In this document: one piece after another, positions 48,679-60,890 of the stretch
How the letters are laid out: every line of letters begins with the position of its first letter
How positions within the stretch are numbered: position 1 is the stretch's first letter
From: Pandoraea oxalativorans
GTDB lineage: Bacteria > Pseudomonadota > Gammaproteobacteria > Burkholderiales > Burkholderiaceae
Length of the DNA: 64,000 nucleotides
Reading direction: 5' to 3'
Assembly: GCF_000972785.3 (NCBI RefSeq)
Contig: NZ_CP011253.3
Coordinates: forward strand, 3,286,001-3,350,000
Position numbers and translations under genes: made by a program
Notes under the pieces: generated by a model
What the model was told of the DNA's origin: nothing
The model's database searches: none
Seen by the model: the letters and a program-made list of their open reading frames with translations, nothing else

Positions 48679-50100
48679 ATGAATCAAGCCCAATTCCTCA
48701 CTGCCTGCCGCGACCTGCTCGGTCGCGATCACGTGCTGACCGAGCGCGCCGACACCGATGCTTACCTCACCGACCAGCGCAAACGGTACGTTGGCAATGC
48801 GCTTGCCGTCCTACGCCCCGCCGACGCCGCCCAGACCGCCGCGCTCGTGCGCCTGTGCGTCGCCCACGGCGTGCCGATGGTGCCGCAAGGGGGAAACACC
48901 GGCTTGGCCGGTGGCGCAACACCCGACGTCAGCGGGCATCAGGTCGTGATCAGTCTGCGACGCCTCGATCGCATCCGTCAGGTGGACGCCGATAACCTGA
49001 CGCTCACCGCCGAAGCCGGGTGCCTCCTCGCGAATGTGCAGGCCGCTGCGGCCGCAGTCGAGCGCCTGTTTCCGCTGAGCCTTGCGGCCGAAGGCAGTTG
49101 CACCATCGGCGGCAATCTGGCGACGAACGCGGGCGGCACGGCGGTGCTGCGGTACGGCAACGCGCGCGAACTGTGTCTGGGTCTGGAAGTCGTCACGCCG
49201 CAGGGCGAGTTGTGGGACGGTCTGCGCGGTCTGCGCAAGGACAACACCGGATACGATCTGCGCGATGTGTTCATCGGCGCGGAAGGCACGCTCGGCCTGA
49301 TCACGGCGGCCACGCTCAAGCTCTTCGCGCAACCCGCCGCGCGCATGACGGCGCTCGCCGCACTCGACAGCCCGGCCGACGCGCTCGCTCTGCTGACCCT
49401 TGCGCAGCGCATGGCCGGGCCGTTGCTCACGGGCTTCGAACTCATGTCCGATTTCTGTCTGCAACTCGTCGCTCAGGTCTTCACGTCGCAACGCTATCCG
49501 TTCTCGCAGCCCTACGCGCAGTCGGTACTGCTCGAACTGTCCGACAACGAGAGCGAGGCGCACGCGCGCGACCTGCTGGAACGGGCACTGAATACCGCCA
49601 TCGAGCGGGGCATCGTGCGCGACGCCATCGTCGCCAGCAGCCTCGCTCAGTCGAATGCGCTCTGGCATCTGCGCGAGAGCATTCCGTTGGCGCAATCGGC
49701 GACAGGCCTCAACATCAAGCACGACATCGCTGTGCCCGTCTCACAAGTGCCAGCGTTCATCGCAGCAACCGATCCCATCGTGCAGCGCATTGCGCCAGGT
49801 GCGCGGATGGTGACGTTCGGCCATCTCGGCGACGGAAATCTGCACTACAACGTGATGGCGCCCGACGGCATCGACCCGGCCGCTTTCCTCAAGCAGTATC
49901 AGACGCCTGTCACCGCCGCCGTCCATGACAGCGTGCATGCGCATCGCGGCACGATCAGCGCCGAGCATGGCCTCGGGCAGTTCAAGCGCGACGCGGCCGC
50001 TCATTACAAATCGCCCGTGGAAATCGCGCTGATGCGCGCGCTCAAGTCGGCGTTCGATCCGCTCGGGCTGATGAACCCCGGCAAAGTGCTGCCCGACTGA
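48679..50100 (+). CDS. FAD-binding 2-hydroxyacid dehydrogenase (GlcD/D2HGDH-like)
   Basis: 473-residue flavoprotein. FAD-binding PCMH-type domain at about 35-215 (VPMVPQGGNTGLAGGATPD, GSCTIGGNLATNAGG), then the FAD-oxidase C domain with metal/substrate motifs FGHLGDGNLHYNV and SAEHGLGQFKRD. It oxidises a D-2-hydroxyacid such as D-lactate, glycolate or D-2-hydroxyglutarate; single-gene context without GlcE/GlcF fits the D2HGDH/D-lactate branch. Electron acceptor is probably ETF or quinone. Exact substrate not decidable. Confidence 0.9.
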   Translation: MNQAQFLTACRDLLGRDHVLTERADTDAYLTDQRKRYVGNALAVLRPADAAQTAALVRLCVAHGVPMVPQGGNTGLAGGATPDVSGHQVVISLRRLDRIRQVDADNLTLTAEAGCLLANVQAAAAAVERLFPLSLAAEGSCTIGGNLATNAGGTAVLRYGNARELCLGLEVVTPQGELWDGLRGLRKDNTGYDLRDVFIGAEGTLGLITAATLKLFAQPAARMTALAALDSPADALALLTLAQRMAGPLLTGFELMSDFCLQLVAQVFTSQRYPFSQPYAQSVLLELSDNESEAHARDLLERALNTAIERGIVRDAIVASSLAQSNALWHLRESIPLAQSATGLNIKHDIAVPVSQVPAFIAATDPIVQRIAPGARMVTFGHLGDGNLHYNVMAPDGIDPAAFLKQYQTPVTAAVHDSVHAHRGTISAEHGLGQFKRDAAAHYKSPVEIALMRALKSAFDPLGLMNPGKVLPD

Positions 50101-50195
50101 GCCGATCGGGCCATCGCGACAGGCAATCGACGCAACCAAACGCAATCAACGGCCACGCATTAAAAAATCGCCATTTTTTGAAGAAATGTCGACAG

Positions 50196-50260
50196 TTTCG
50201 CGACAAAACGCCGCGAAATCCCGCCATTTTCTTTACAGACGCGCGCCAAATCCCTAGAAT
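50196..50260 (+). promoter_or_regulatory. Strong promoter with upstream dyad, start of a long leader
   Basis: TTTACA at 50232-50237, exactly 17 bases, TAGAAT at 50255-50260; each hexamer matches the sigma-70 consensus in 5 of 6 positions. A dyad TTTCGCG/CGCGAAA (50196-50202 and 50212-50218) is centred about 60 bases before the predicted start near 50267, the classic activator position. A direct repeat CGCCATTTT occurs at 50169 and again at 50222, flanking the dyad. Confidence 0.7.
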
Positions 50261-50290
50261 GGACGCTTTCCAATTACGACGGAGTTTTCC

Positions 50291-50353
50291 GTGGGCAGTT
50301 GCTCTAGTAGCACGCAAGCGTCGGCAATGACCGGCGAGGCGTTGGCCCGGTAA
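50291..50353 (+). CDS. Candidate 20-residue leader peptide
   Basis: GTG-initiated frame reading MGSCSSSTQASAMTGEALAR, ended by TAA. GGAG at 50281-50284 lies six bases before the GTG, and the predicted RNA start is about 24 bases upstream. Two hairpins follow directly (50357-50400). The frame is Ser/Ala-rich, so ribosome progress on it could report serine or general translation status. No homologue is known to me; support is purely positional. Confidence 0.45.
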   Translation: MGSCSSSTQASAMTGEALAR

Positions 50354-50356
50354 CCC

Positions 50357-50400
50357 GCAGTCGTCCCCGACTGCCGCTGCCGGACTCAATGCCGCAGCGG
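50357..50400 (+). promoter_or_regulatory. Tandem hairpins in the structured leader
   Basis: GCAGTCG/CGACTGC (50357-50374, TCCC loop) abuts CCGCTGC/GCAGCGG (50374-50400, 13-base loop) immediately after the leader frame. Further stems lie at about 50506-50526 (CGGATGAC/GTCATCCG) and 50653-50670 (CGCGCCA/TGGCGCG). The whole leader from about 50267 to 50749 has no other supported gene and no obvious U-run terminator. Confidence 0.5.
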
Positions 50401-50749
50401 TAGTGCATCGATCGCACCGAATCACGATGACGTCAGCGTCAACCGAGACTTCGGCAAGCGATTCAGATTTCCCGCACCTGTCACCGCAGTTCAGCGTTTG
50501 TTCGACGGATGACGTCGCGTCATCCGGAACAAGGCACGCTTCTTAGCGCCACGCCGCGGCCGACATGACATCGTCGGTCACCCGAGGCGCGATCAAGCCT
50601 GCCGACGCTTGCGTCGAATTCATGCATCGCGTGACGTTATACATACGCCTCTCGCGCCATCGGTGGCGCGCAAGCGTCCGTCGAGCGCACACGACGCATC
50701 GCCAAGCCCCGGCATCCGCCGTCTCAGGCCCTTGAATCAGGAGGACACC

Positions 50750-51136
50750 ATGACGCTGCAAATGCTTATCCCGTCGCTGTTCGATCGTGCTCGCAGTCGC
50801 CTCGCACCGGCGTCGGCCACATCGAACGCCACGCCAGCGCCCCATGCCACCGCGTCGCATGCGTCGCCCCAGTACCGCCTCGTCGTGCTGACGCTGGCGT
50901 CTCGGGCGGACAGCATCGACACCACGGTGCGCAACGCCCTTCGCTCGCAGCGGATTTCACCGGAAGCGGCGACCCGCACCGACCGCTCGGGCGGCTACCT
51001 GCTGGAGCTCGACTATGTGTTGCGCTGCGACCGCAGTGGTCGCGCCGCGCTCGTCCATCTTGTCTCGACGCTCGGCGACACCGCCGGCGTCCGCGCAATT
51101 CGCTGGGAAACGGCGCCGAATCTGACCGGGCGCTAG
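50750..51136 (+). CDS. Stand-alone MgtC C-terminal-domain-like protein
   Basis: 128-residue cytoplasmic protein. A 40-residue Ala/Ser/Thr/Pro linker precedes an ACT-like beta-alpha-beta unit (YRLVVLTLASRADSIDTTVRNALRSQRISPEAATRTD ... ALVHLVSTLGDTAGVRAIRWE). That unit resembles the cytoplasmic C-terminal domain of the MgtC virulence/Mg2+-starvation proteins. The membrane half of MgtC is missing. AGGAGG precedes ATG 50750. The 480-base structured leader with a strong promoter upstream recalls the mgt leaders of enterobacteria, but homology there is not shown. It could also be another ACT-type small-molecule sensor. Confidence 0.6.
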   Translation: MTLQMLIPSLFDRARSRLAPASATSNATPAPHATASHASPQYRLVVLTLASRADSIDTTVRNALRSQRISPEAATRTDRSGGYLLELDYVLRCDRSGRAALVHLVSTLGDTAGVRAIRWETAPNLTGR

Positions 51137-51259
51137 TTTTTTCCCTCTCCCTCTACTCTCCTCCCGTCGGTCCGGCGAGCCGCAACGTTTCAGACGTCCA
51201 CGCTCCCCGGACCGATTGCCATTTCCGCTCAGACGCCGTCAATGACGCGCCACACCCAA

Positions 51260-51292
51260 ACCTGTACGTTCACGTATAGGTTGTGCTAAGAT
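51260..51292 (+). promoter_or_regulatory. MerR-type operator/promoter
   Basis: Imperfect 22-bp dyad ACCTGTACGT-TC-ACGTATAGGT (one mismatch between arms) at 51260-51281, followed by TAAGAT at 51287-51292 as a -10 element. It lies 31 bases before the merR-type gene, so autoregulation and control of the MFS gene are likely. Confidence 0.6.
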
Positions 51293-51322
51293 CCCGTCTA
51301 TCATTCGATCGGAGGCACGTTC

Positions 51323-51847
51323 ATGCCCGCAGATCTCTCATCGACAGCCCCCGGTGGCGCCACGGCGGACGATGCCTCGCTGCTGACCGTCGGTCAGGCG
51401 GCGGCCGCGCTCGGCGTCACGGCGCGCACCTTGAAGTATTACGAGGAACTGAACCTCGTCGTCCCCGCCCGTAGCGGCGGACGCTACCGCATGTACACGC
51501 CCGCCGATCTCGAAACGTTCGGCCGCATCCTGCGCATGCGCTCGCTCGGCTTCTCGATTGCCGCGATCACCGAAATGCTCAAGCGGCCGCGTCGCATGGT
51601 CGAAGCGGGCAAATCGCGCATGAACGAGGAAGATCTGCAGGTCGTGCGGGACGCACTCACCTCGCAACTCGACACGCTGCGCGAGCGCACCGCGCAGGTG
51701 CGTCGCGAATTGCGCGATGCCGAGACGCTGGAAGCCCAGATCCGCCACGACCTTCGCTACATCGAACAACGCCTTCAGGGCGTACCGGCCGACGACTTGC
51801 TGGCCGAGCGCGCCGCCAAAGTGCGCAAAACGTCCTCGTCGCACTGA
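51323..51847 (+). CDS. MerR family regulator beside an MFS exporter
   Basis: 174-residue MerR protein. HTH at about 21-60 (LLTVGQAAAALGVTARTLKYYEELNLVVPARSGGRYRMYTPADL), then a long dimerisation helix and a coiled-coil-like tail (LDTLRERTAQVRRELRDAETLEAQIRHDLRYIEQRLQG). No metal-binding cysteines, so it probably senses an organic compound. GGAGG ribosome site. The MFS gene starts 18 bases after its stop, so the two form an operon. Confidence 0.92.
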   Translation: MPADLSSTAPGGATADDASLLTVGQAAAALGVTARTLKYYEELNLVVPARSGGRYRMYTPADLETFGRILRMRSLGFSIAAITEMLKRPRRMVEAGKSRMNEEDLQVVRDALTSQLDTLRERTAQVRRELRDAETLEAQIRHDLRYIEQRLQGVPADDLLAERAAKVRKTSSSH

Positions 51848-51865
51848 GTCCCGACAAGGCCTATC

Positions 51866-53470
51866 ATGCCTCCCGCCGTGCCGCCGACCTCGTCTACCGC
51901 ACCACCAAGCCCTCCGCCTGCGGGCAACACTGGTGGCGCGGACCCGCTGCGTCCCATGCGCGTCGAGGCCTATCGTTACGCCCTCGGCCTGATCCCCGGA
52001 CTGGAGTTCTTCGAGAACGCGCTCCTCGTGTATTTCGCCGTGTATGTTTCCGGCGGCGTCGATGCGTCTCCCAAAGAATTCGTATGGATGACGACGGCGT
52101 ATGGCATCGCCTCCGTACTCGCCATTCTCAAGCAACAGTGGTTCGTCGAGCGCATCGGCTACCGCCGTTATCTGACGGGCTCGCTGCTGCTTTACGCTTG
52201 CGGCGCCGTGCTGGCGGGCACCAGCGAAGGCGTGACGCAACTCGTGATCGCACGCGCGTGTCAGGGCTTTTGCGCCGGCAGCTGGATGAGCTCATGCCGG
52301 ATCCTCGCGCAAGTGAGCGTGCCCGCCGAGCGTCGCGGCAAAACGGTCCGGACCTTTGCCTTGCTGCTGTTCACCGGCTCGGCGGCGGCGCCGCTCATCG
52401 GCGGCCTGCTGGTCTCCGAATACACCTGGCGCACGCTCTTCCTGTGCACCGCACCGCCGGCCGTACTGCTCGCCGGTCTTGCATGGTTCGCCATCCCGGA
52501 CGTCGGCCGCCTGCGCGACCGCGCGAGTGGCGGCAGCTATCCGTTCGCACCGTTCATGGCCTTTGCCCTCGCGATGGGCGCATTTCAGGTCGTGCTTCAG
52601 GAGATGCGTTACACACTGTGGCTGCAAACGCCCCTGTTGCCGTTGCTCACCGTCGTGGGCGTGGGCGCGCTGGTGTGGTTCGGCTATCACCAATGGCAAC
52701 ATCCTGCGCCGTTCATCCGTTTGCAGCCGTTACGTCGACGCGAGTTCCAGGTCGGACTCCTGCTCTACGCGGCTTACTACTATCTGGCGAACACGCAAAG
52801 CTATCTGATGCCTCGGTTGCTGGAGCAGGGGTTCGGCTTCACGGTCGAGCGCACAGGGCAACTGCTCGGCTACTCCGCGCTACTCACCGTCATCCTGCTG
52901 CTCGCCTATTTCCGTGTAGCGAAGTTCATCGCGAACAAGAAGCTGCTGATCGTGAGCGGTTTTCTGATGACGATCGCGACCAGCATGTGGCTCGGCGCCA
53001 TGCCACCGGACGCAGGACAGTCGCAGCTCTACGGCGTGCTCGCACTCAAGGCCGTGTTCGGCATCTTCACCGTGCTGCCGGTGGCAAACCTCACATTCCG
53101 CACCTTCGATCACGAGAGCTTCGTGCACGGATATCGCCTCAAGAACATTCTCCGTCAGCTCTCCGGCTCGTTCGCCGTCTCCACCATCGTCGCGTTCGAG
53201 CAGCATCGGGAAGCCCTGCATCGCACCCGGCTCACAGAAGTGGCCAATCCCTACAATCCGATCTTTACGCAGACCCTGGAATCGCTCGCGAATGCGCTCA
53301 CGCATGCGGGCGTTGCCGCTTCGCAGGCACAAGGTGCGGCACTCGCACAGATCGCCCGGATGATCGAGCGGCAGGCGTCGTTTCTCTCGTTCATCGACGG
53401 CTTTCACTTCATTGCCATCGTGGCATTGTGCGGTGCGATTTTTGCGGCAATTCAGAAGCAGCTAAATTAG
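51866..53470 (+). CDS. MFS exporter, DHA2-like
   Basis: 534-residue inner-membrane protein with about 14 helices after a Pro-rich cytoplasmic N-terminus of 30 residues. The motif-C-like region RTFALLLFTGSAAAPLIGGLLVSEYTWRTLFL and the preceding SSCRILAQVSVPAERRGKT fit the DHA2 drug:H+ antiporters. It lies 18 bases behind the MerR gene and is probably induced by the compound that regulator senses. The substrate is unknown. Confidence 0.9.
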   Translation: MPPAVPPTSSTAPPSPPPAGNTGGADPLRPMRVEAYRYALGLIPGLEFFENALLVYFAVYVSGGVDASPKEFVWMTTAYGIASVLAILKQQWFVERIGYRRYLTGSLLLYACGAVLAGTSEGVTQLVIARACQGFCAGSWMSSCRILAQVSVPAERRGKTVRTFALLLFTGSAAAPLIGGLLVSEYTWRTLFLCTAPPAVLLAGLAWFAIPDVGRLRDRASGGSYPFAPFMAFALAMGAFQVVLQEMRYTLWLQTPLLPLLTVVGVGALVWFGYHQWQHPAPFIRLQPLRRREFQVGLLLYAAYYYLANTQSYLMPRLLEQGFGFTVERTGQLLGYSALLTVILLLAYFRVAKFIANKKLLIVSGFLMTIATSMWLGAMPPDAGQSQLYGVLALKAVFGIFTVLPVANLTFRTFDHESFVHGYRLKNILRQLSGSFAVSTIVAFEQHREALHRTRLTEVANPYNPIFTQTLESLANALTHAGVAASQAQGAALAQIARMIERQASFLSFIDGFHFIAIVALCGAIFAAIQKQLN

Positions 53471-60218: not shown

Positions 60219-60295
60219 TGGCGGAGCGGACGGGGCTCGAACCCGCGACCCCCGGCGTGACAGGCCGGTATTCTAACCAACTGAACTACCGCTCC
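60219..60295 (-). tRNA. tRNA-Asp (anticodon GTC), copy 1
   Basis: 77-nt minus-strand cloverleaf with encoded CCA. Acceptor GGAGCGG/CCGCTCC, anticodon stem enclosing CTGTCAC, anticodon GTC, T-loop GGTTCGAGCCC. Identical over its length to the copy at 60395-60471. Confidence 0.97.
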
Positions 60296-60394
60296 AAACT
60301 TGCTGCAGCATCGTGATGTCACTCACTTTGCTTTCCTGCTAGTTGCCCGGCATTGCTGCGTTTTCACGCGCATATCACCGAACTTCGTAGGTTT

Positions 60395-60471
60395 TGGCGG
60401 AGCGGACGGGGCTCGAACCCGCGACCCCCGGCGTGACAGGCCGGTATTCTAACCAACTGAACTACCGCTCC
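60395..60471 (-). tRNA. tRNA-Asp (anticodon GTC), copy 2
   Basis: Same 77-nt sequence as the copy at 60219-60295, separated from it by 99 bases of unrelated spacer. A terminator-like hairpin lies just upstream on its strand (60481-60507). Confidence 0.97.
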
Positions 60472-60480
60472 AAAACCGAC

Positions 60481-60507
60481 AAAAAAACCCGCCTGACTTT
60501 CAGCGGG
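60481..60507 (-). terminator. Terminator-like hairpin between tRNA-Glu and tRNA-Asp
   Basis: CCCGC/GCGGG with an inner TGA/TCA pairing (60488-60507), followed on the minus strand by seven T residues (A-run 60481-60487). It would end or reduce the tRNA-Ala/Glu transcript before the Asp copies, leaving only nine bases before copy 2. Confidence 0.7.
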
Positions 60508-60569
60508 CTTTACGCCACAAACTGCCTGGCATTTTCAAACTGATACCGACTCGCTACCGGCACCAATTC

Positions 60570-60645
60570 TGGCGTCCCCTAGGGGATTCGAACCCCTGTA
60601 CTCACCGTGAAAGGGTGATGTCCTAGGCCTCTAGACGAAGGGGAC
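60570..60645 (-). tRNA. tRNA-Glu (anticodon TTC)
   Basis: 76-nt minus-strand cloverleaf with CCA. Acceptor GTCCCCT/AGGGGAC, anticodon stem TCACC/GGTGA enclosing CTTTCAC, anticodon TTC, T-loop GGTTCGAATCC. Confidence 0.97.
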
Positions 60646-60814
60646 AAAATCGTCAAAACTTTGTCTGTTTCGCTACTACTTACTGCATTTAGCGAAGAAC
60701 GCCATTCTAAACAACATTTCTTCGCTTGTGAAGCTTTATTTTCAAGTTTTTTGCATCGTTTTCGCAAGAATCTTGCTCTTTCGACGCAGCCTGAAAACCA
60801 AGCTTCTGAATCCG

Positions 60815-60890
<76 letters not shown>

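Follow-up and report, generated by a model that had tools for sequence, protein, structure and literature searches.

In the speF leader of Salmonella, the progress of a ribosome over consecutive arginine codons of the small reading frame orf34 is described as setting the choice between a hairpin and a ring, which is closed by a long-range helix and has Rho and RNase G as its outputs (PMC6386406). The mgtA and corA leaders of Escherichia coli, which precede genes for Mg2+ transporters, also contain upstream open reading frames (uORFs; mgtL and corL), adopt two mutually exclusive folds and have a Rho-dependent output, and mgtL is reported to require proline or acidic residues (PMC11552253). The account of CruR in Bordetella pertussis concerns a uORF of the DUF2946 type, whose product is longer and carries CXXC and RAPP motifs, in a system involving copper and Rho (PMC9426467).

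Here we describe a leader of about 480 nt (~483 nt) in Pandoraea oxalativorans which, together with its promoter, occupies positions 50232-50749 of the 64,000-nt stretch of DNA analysed (the window). Its layout is closest to that of speF, with which it shares a long leader, a short uORF in which rare control codons cluster towards the beginning, a hairpin close behind the uORF stop (here P1, 4 nt past the TAA), and a helix between the uORF and a region hundreds of nucleotides downstream that would close a ring-like structure (PMC6386406). It is not a member of the speF/orf34 class, because the codons, the gene and the position of the helix differ. The control codons of speF specify arginine within a conserved DUF2618 peptide, whereas the candidate control codons found here specify serine; the speF gene encodes an ornithine decarboxylase, whereas the gene found here encodes a small ACT-like domain; and the speF helix is described as overlapping the ribosome-binding site, whereas the downstream arm found here (A′) lies 135 nt before the start codon (PMC6386406). 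What it has in common with mgtA and corA is a leader that contains a uORF and can adopt two mutually exclusive folds, together with, here, an MgtC-like gene, but this uORF is without the proline and acidic residues described for mgtL and corL, and no Mg2+ transporter lies downstream (PMC11552253). As with CruR, a betaproteobacterial uORF would control the gene that follows it, although the 20-residue frame has neither a CXXC nor a RAPP motif (PMC9426467).

Results

The leader lies between a gene for an FAD-linked oxidase, which ends at 50100, and a gene for a 128-residue protein, which starts at 50750. The elements that frame it are:

50196..50218, no strand assigned: dyad TTTCGCG-N9-CGCGAAA, centred at about -60
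50232..50260, + strand: sigma-70-type promoter TTTACA-17-TAGAAT
50739..50744, + strand: Shine-Dalgarno sequence AGGAGG of the gene, from the alignment
50750..51136, + strand: gene for the 128-aa protein, a stand-alone domain with the MgtC C-terminal (ACT-like) fold according to a structure model and PDB matches

The sigma-70 promoter proposed in an initial annotation of this DNA was confirmed: TTTACA-17-TAGAAT is the sole such match in 50101-51322, where 0.3 would be expected, and TTTAC(N)-17-TANNNT is present in all 26 loci at which the leader was found, 3-4 nt before the conserved block. The conserved stretch starts at CTTTCC, 6 nt past the -10 box, an onset that fits a predicted transcription start near 50266-50268. 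The TTTCGCG/CGCGAAA dyad named in the same annotation is also there, and 21 of 26 loci keep it with two mismatches or fewer; it is absent from L017, L018, L019, L025 and L026, and is a possible operator. The window does contain the CGCCATTTT direct repeat said to flank the dyad. On visual inspection of the 26 aligned loci, however, only L001 and L002 carry an exact upstream copy, and the repeat is therefore not treated as a feature.

The leader was found in 26 of 32 Pandoraea genomes. A blastn search of 398 genomes of the family returned these 26 matches and four short ones outside the genus (~30-40 nt, E 4e-4 to 8e-4), which we took as chance. A covariance-model search, proposed in the initial annotation as a check, was also made. 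The model, built from the 26 sequences, was run with stricter filters against 399 genomes of the order and matched its own genome only, with no match in another genus; among the genomes shown for that search the genus was represented by G000 and G018 alone, so that it serves as a test of other genera. G018, a genome of 1.2 Mb classed in the same genus, is without the leader, the gene and the oxidase, and its small size suggests a reduced symbiont. Within the leader no family of Rfam 15 reached its gathering score, and raising the E-value limit to 5 added two sub-threshold matches only, in keeping with the initial annotation, which did not recognise a described riboswitch or leader class here. 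A literature search for Pandoraea and leader peptides, which was not exhaustive, returned only a review of lasso peptides. The leader is a real, genus-restricted RNA that could not be matched to a described family.

Leader and gene co-occur in the 26 genomes, and neither has a convincing match in the other six genomes of the genus, where the protein match is either none (two genomes) or weak (four genomes, E 1e-4 to 4e-3). A protein search listed 28 relatives, all of which, where an organism is named, are Pandoraea. A set of 15 named relatives, L031-L045, likewise consists of Pandoraea throughout. Eighteen weak protein relatives were seen outside the genus (E 2e-8 to 0.01); the leader model found no match at the loci of weak relatives that were searched, L083 and L084 outside the genus and L085-L087 within it. 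The gene is followed closely by those for a MerR-type regulator and an EmrB-like MFS transporter (window 51323-53470). Comparison of L089 and L090 shows that G011 has no leader, gene or MerR gene and that its oxidase is followed at once by the MFS gene; in G008 no match to the gene, MerR or MFS was seen in the ~2.1 kb past the oxidase. Further along the window, four tRNA genes are clustered on the minus strand (60222-60890).

The predicted structure of the 128-residue protein is beta-alpha-beta-beta-alpha-beta, with residues 40-120 mostly at pLDDT >90. Its best PDB matches, 7qa5 and 2lqj (23% and 16% identity), are the MgtC C-terminal domains of Pseudomonas aeruginosa and Mycobacterium tuberculosis; the next, within one to two Z units, are ACT domains, some of them from serine-pathway enzymes, and ribosomal protein S6. 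The earlier description of an MgtC-domain-like gene is thus borne out by fold, but not by the Pfam family MgtC_SapB_C (PF21770), to which the protein scores 13.5 bits (E 0.11) against a gathering score of 27 bits. Unlike MgtC (7qa5, 2lqj), the domain stands alone, without the membrane part. Two further loci of the same genome, L075 and L076 (C1:462563 and C1:1738166), encode a full-length MgtC/SapB protein, at 42.8 bits to PF21770, and another small protein with the domain on its own, which at 25.1 bits misses the cut-off; the leader model matches neither locus.

Conservation of the leader is concentrated at its 5′ end, which contains the following features:

50266..50420, + strand: conserved 5′ domain, from the predicted transcript start to P2 and the next stretch (identity, alignment)
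50279..50292, + strand: hairpin H0, ACGGA-GTTT-TCCGT, holding the GGAG of the uORF; 100% of cells paired in 25 species
50291..50353, + strand: the uORF, GTG...TAA, MGSCSSSTQASAMTGEALAR
50357..50374, + strand: hairpin P1, beginning 4 nt past the uORF stop; six pairs invariant in 25 species, loop variable
50375..50399, + strand: hairpin P2, abutting P1; six pairs, one with G-U variation, in 25 species

We used four-fold degenerate sites of the upstream gene as a neutral yardstick. At these sites the four closest relatives are 76-81% identical to the window; the 20 that come next have fallen to 50-58%, and L026 to 48%. The first ~155 nt of the leader stand far above this yardstick: 24 of 25 relatives share 92-99% of these positions with the window, and L026 shares 78%, which argues that the 5′ block is under strong constraint at the nucleotide level. 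The two abutting hairpins predicted after the stop codon were recovered in the alignment as P1 and P2, although P2 does not align in L026. A local fold, in which the stem 50293-50296/50345-50348 surrounds two hairpins, is kept in 98.2% of cells; the pairing of uORF codons 8-12 with 50331-50342, taken together with the closing stem, is kept in 99-100%, with one G-U/A-U alternation in nine species. An alternative partner for 50295-50302 may be the 3′ arm of P1. Since the block hardly varies, it offers no covariation: RNAalifold placed no pair in the 5′ domain with changes on both sides, and its covariation term was only -0.17 kcal/mol. Likewise, H0 has a single C-G to U-G change among 25 species and is otherwise invariant, which leaves it without covariation support.

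The initial annotation had described GGAG followed by a GTG frame of 20 codons ending in TAA, and had staked its reading in part on conservation of that frame in relatives. The coordinates agree, and the arrangement of GGAG (50281-50284), six bases, GTG (50291-50293) and TAA (50351-50353) is kept, with the frame open, in 26 of 26 loci. Over 57 nt, the other reading frames stay open in eight and one of the 26. The uORF has 20 codons in 25 loci and 21 in L026, where a 3-nt insertion is in frame. Codons 3-7 specify Ser-Cys-Ser-Ser-Ser and include the rare codons AGT and TCT, which make up 8% and 5% of the serine codons in 32 long open reading frames of the window, picked by length. Position 6 changes from serine to arginine in L004 and L022, and L026 has asparagine at position 7. 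No locus has consecutive arginine codons in the uORF. Proline is absent from the frame in 25 of 26 loci (L011 has one), and acidic residues are confined to positions 15-16, which vary, and to the L026 insertion, the single glutamate of the window being one that varies. Outside L026, the 25 loci show 15 distinct codon changes, four of which are synonymous; the random expectation is 42 of 171 (25%). As the synonymous share is not above random, importance of the peptide is not supported, and from the pattern of changes most of the constraint on the uORF appears to act on RNA. The proposal of translation coupling accordingly stands in part: the anatomy and the folding model described below are in its favour, while translation of the frame gains nothing from a synonymous share of 4 in 15 against 25%.

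Downstream of the 5′ domain the linker varies in sequence and length among loci. Its elements, listed together with the uORF arm A that one of them complements, are:

50312..50326, + strand: A, 5′ arm of a long-range helix, formed by codons 8-12 of the uORF; pairs with A′ in 99.5% of cells from 25 species, and assessed by shuffles in 11 species
50506..50526, + strand: linker hairpin P4; four of six pairs with compensatory changes on both sides, 93.3% of cells paired
50600..50614, + strand: A′, 3′ arm of the helix, a conserved island amid variable linker; present in 25 of 26 loci, absent from L026
50706..50723, + strand: island C, just 5′ of the ribosome-binding site of the gene, which could pair with 50278-50296; ~99% of cells paired

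A is the exact 15-nt reverse complement of A′, 273 nt further downstream. This complementarity is new here, being absent from the earlier note. In seven of 11 species, 0 of 150 dinucleotide shuffles equalled or exceeded the longest exact uORF complement in the linker; a complement of the same length or longer arose in one of 150 for L024, in four and seven of 150 for L016 and L019, and in 148 of 150 for L026. Among the A:A′ pairs of the 25 species, three vary by G-U and one is a C-A mismatch in L016 and L019, and none shows double compensation. RNAalifold of the 25 leaders placed A:A′ too, and mean modelled pairing, with the uORF placed 1 nt early, was at least 0.60 in 20 of 25 species. The conservation of the leader and its A:A′ complementarity are well supported. 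A can alternatively pair with 50331-50342 inside the uORF, and because A′ resembles this 3′ arm of the local fold, the two are natural competitors for A. Two further candidates were set aside: a local hairpin of A′ (50603-50616), paired in 94.4% of cells and broken in six of 25 species, as against 99.5% for A:A′, and a third A-like copy near 50670, which is not conserved in relatives.

P4 is the element of the leader for which covariation can be cited, since its compensatory changes argue that the linker is structured RNA; for the structure as a whole, 0 of 500 shuffles reached as many. Of the later hairpins that had been proposed before the gene, the one at 50506-50526 is in this way supported. 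Pairing between island C and the uORF start, on the other hand, was matched in L001 by 42 of 200 dinucleotide shuffles, which is within chance; composition shuffles in seven species other than L026 gave fractions of 0.23-0.55, and the pairing was mostly rare in sampled structures. We keep it as a possibility that is strong in L026 only. That diverged locus, whose protein is named Pandoraea terrae, keeps the promoter, uORF and P1 without A′, and its leader is shorter, with 338 nt ahead of the start codon. The uORF start there has a strong complement just 5′ of the ribosome-binding site, at -29.4 kcal/mol, which 0 of 300 shuffles reached. Two readings of L026 offer themselves: its ring may be closed in a different way, or A:A′ may be dispensable.

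The effect of ribosome occupancy was modelled by folding leaders with a 31-nt ribosome footprint, a helix being scored as formed when it was present in half or more of the samples. A:A′ formed in 19 of 25 species without a ribosome, in seven with Ser5 in the A site, in none with Ser7, in 23 with a ribosome at the stop codon and in 19 with a downstream control block. Both extremes are partly built in, as the Ser7 footprint covers two thirds of A and the stop-codon footprint covers P1 by construction (P1 0/26). P1 itself formed in 19 of 26 species without a ribosome as compared with 12 of 26 at Ser7, a drop that does not fit the simplest analogy with speF.

Masking of the ribosome-binding site was considered as an output and rejected. 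In models of 26 species, with the uORF placed one nucleotide too early, mean access of the Shine-Dalgarno sequence was 0.18-0.22 across five states and mean opening energy 12.3-13.0 kcal/mol across four, with no consistent effect of uORF occupancy on either. If a switch exists, these models suggest that its output is probably not simple masking. A search of the leader found no intrinsic terminator, and its excess of C over G is about that of the upstream coding region only, which gives no clear pointer to Rho.

Discussion

The earlier claim of a leader that is structured and conserved and contains a small reading frame is supported by the conservation of the element and by its lack of an Rfam match at gathering score. 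We judge the chances to be about even that it is a cis-acting, translation-sensing leader. The frame open in 26 of 26 loci, A′ in 25 of 26 and the A:A′ shuffle results count for translation sensing, as do the conservation of the 5′ block, the modelled response of A:A′ to footprints, P4, the rarity of the serine codons and the co-occurrence of leader and gene. The lack of double compensation in A:A′, the absence of A′ from L026 and the mismatch in L016 and L019 count against it, as do the synonymous share, the lack of covariation in the 5′ domain, the steady modelled state of the ribosome-binding site, the drop of P1 at Ser7 and the replacement of serine at positions 6 and 7 in some loci. Under this reading the uORF would be translated. 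A ribosome held at the serine-rich codons 3-7 would mask A and so block A:A′, while one at the stop codon would leave A free to close a large ring. Our guess is that the ring would be the OFF state, acting through termination or transcript stability rather than through masking of the ribosome-binding site.

The most specific form of this proposal is rather unlikely to hold in all its parts. In this serine-sensing version, progress of the ribosome through rare serine codons would set a 15-bp helix and with it a ring of ~300 nt, and thereby expression of the downstream gene, whose orphan ACT-type product may have an amino acid or an ion as its own ligand; the arrangement would be speF-like but independently arisen in Pandoraea.

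An unlikely alternative is a riboswitch-like leader in which the 5′ domain is an aptamer, the frame is incidental and a ligand picks either the local fold or A:A′. In its favour, constraint acts at the level of nucleotides rather than codons, the local fold is kept, and the arm A is contested by 50331-50342 and A′. An incidental frame, however, sits poorly with GGAG, GTG, TAA and an open frame in every locus and with an insertion in L026 that is in frame, and no Rfam family reached gathering score. The element is also confined to one genus, which would be unusual among aptamers.

We regard it as quite improbable that the 5′ part is (also) a small RNA, released by processing or early termination and acting on other transcripts. 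Such a role would suit the concentration of conservation in the first ~155 nt and the hairpins at the 3′ side of that block; on the other side, a terminator-like site was not found in the leader, conservation extends to A′ and to the region ahead of the gene, and the element is always found with the gene.

A Mg2+-responsive leader of the mgtA and corA kind, in which translation of an mgtL/corL-type uORF would control an MgtC-related protein, is very doubtful: the downstream fold does best match MgtC C-terminal domains, and those leaders are described as sharing a uORF, exclusive folds and a Rho output, but mgtL is reported to need proline or acidic residues (PMC11552253), and the window uORF has no proline and a single, variable glutamate; there is no Rfam match, and Pfam and structure matches gave no signs of a transporter in the product.

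To return to translation sensing, the parts of the leader amount to a testable switch, in which pairing between two 15-nt islands can be disrupted and then restored. If the reading is true, ring-forming leaders read through a uORF would have evolved more than once, and the signal sensed would hint at what domains of the MgtC C-terminal fold do when they stand alone.
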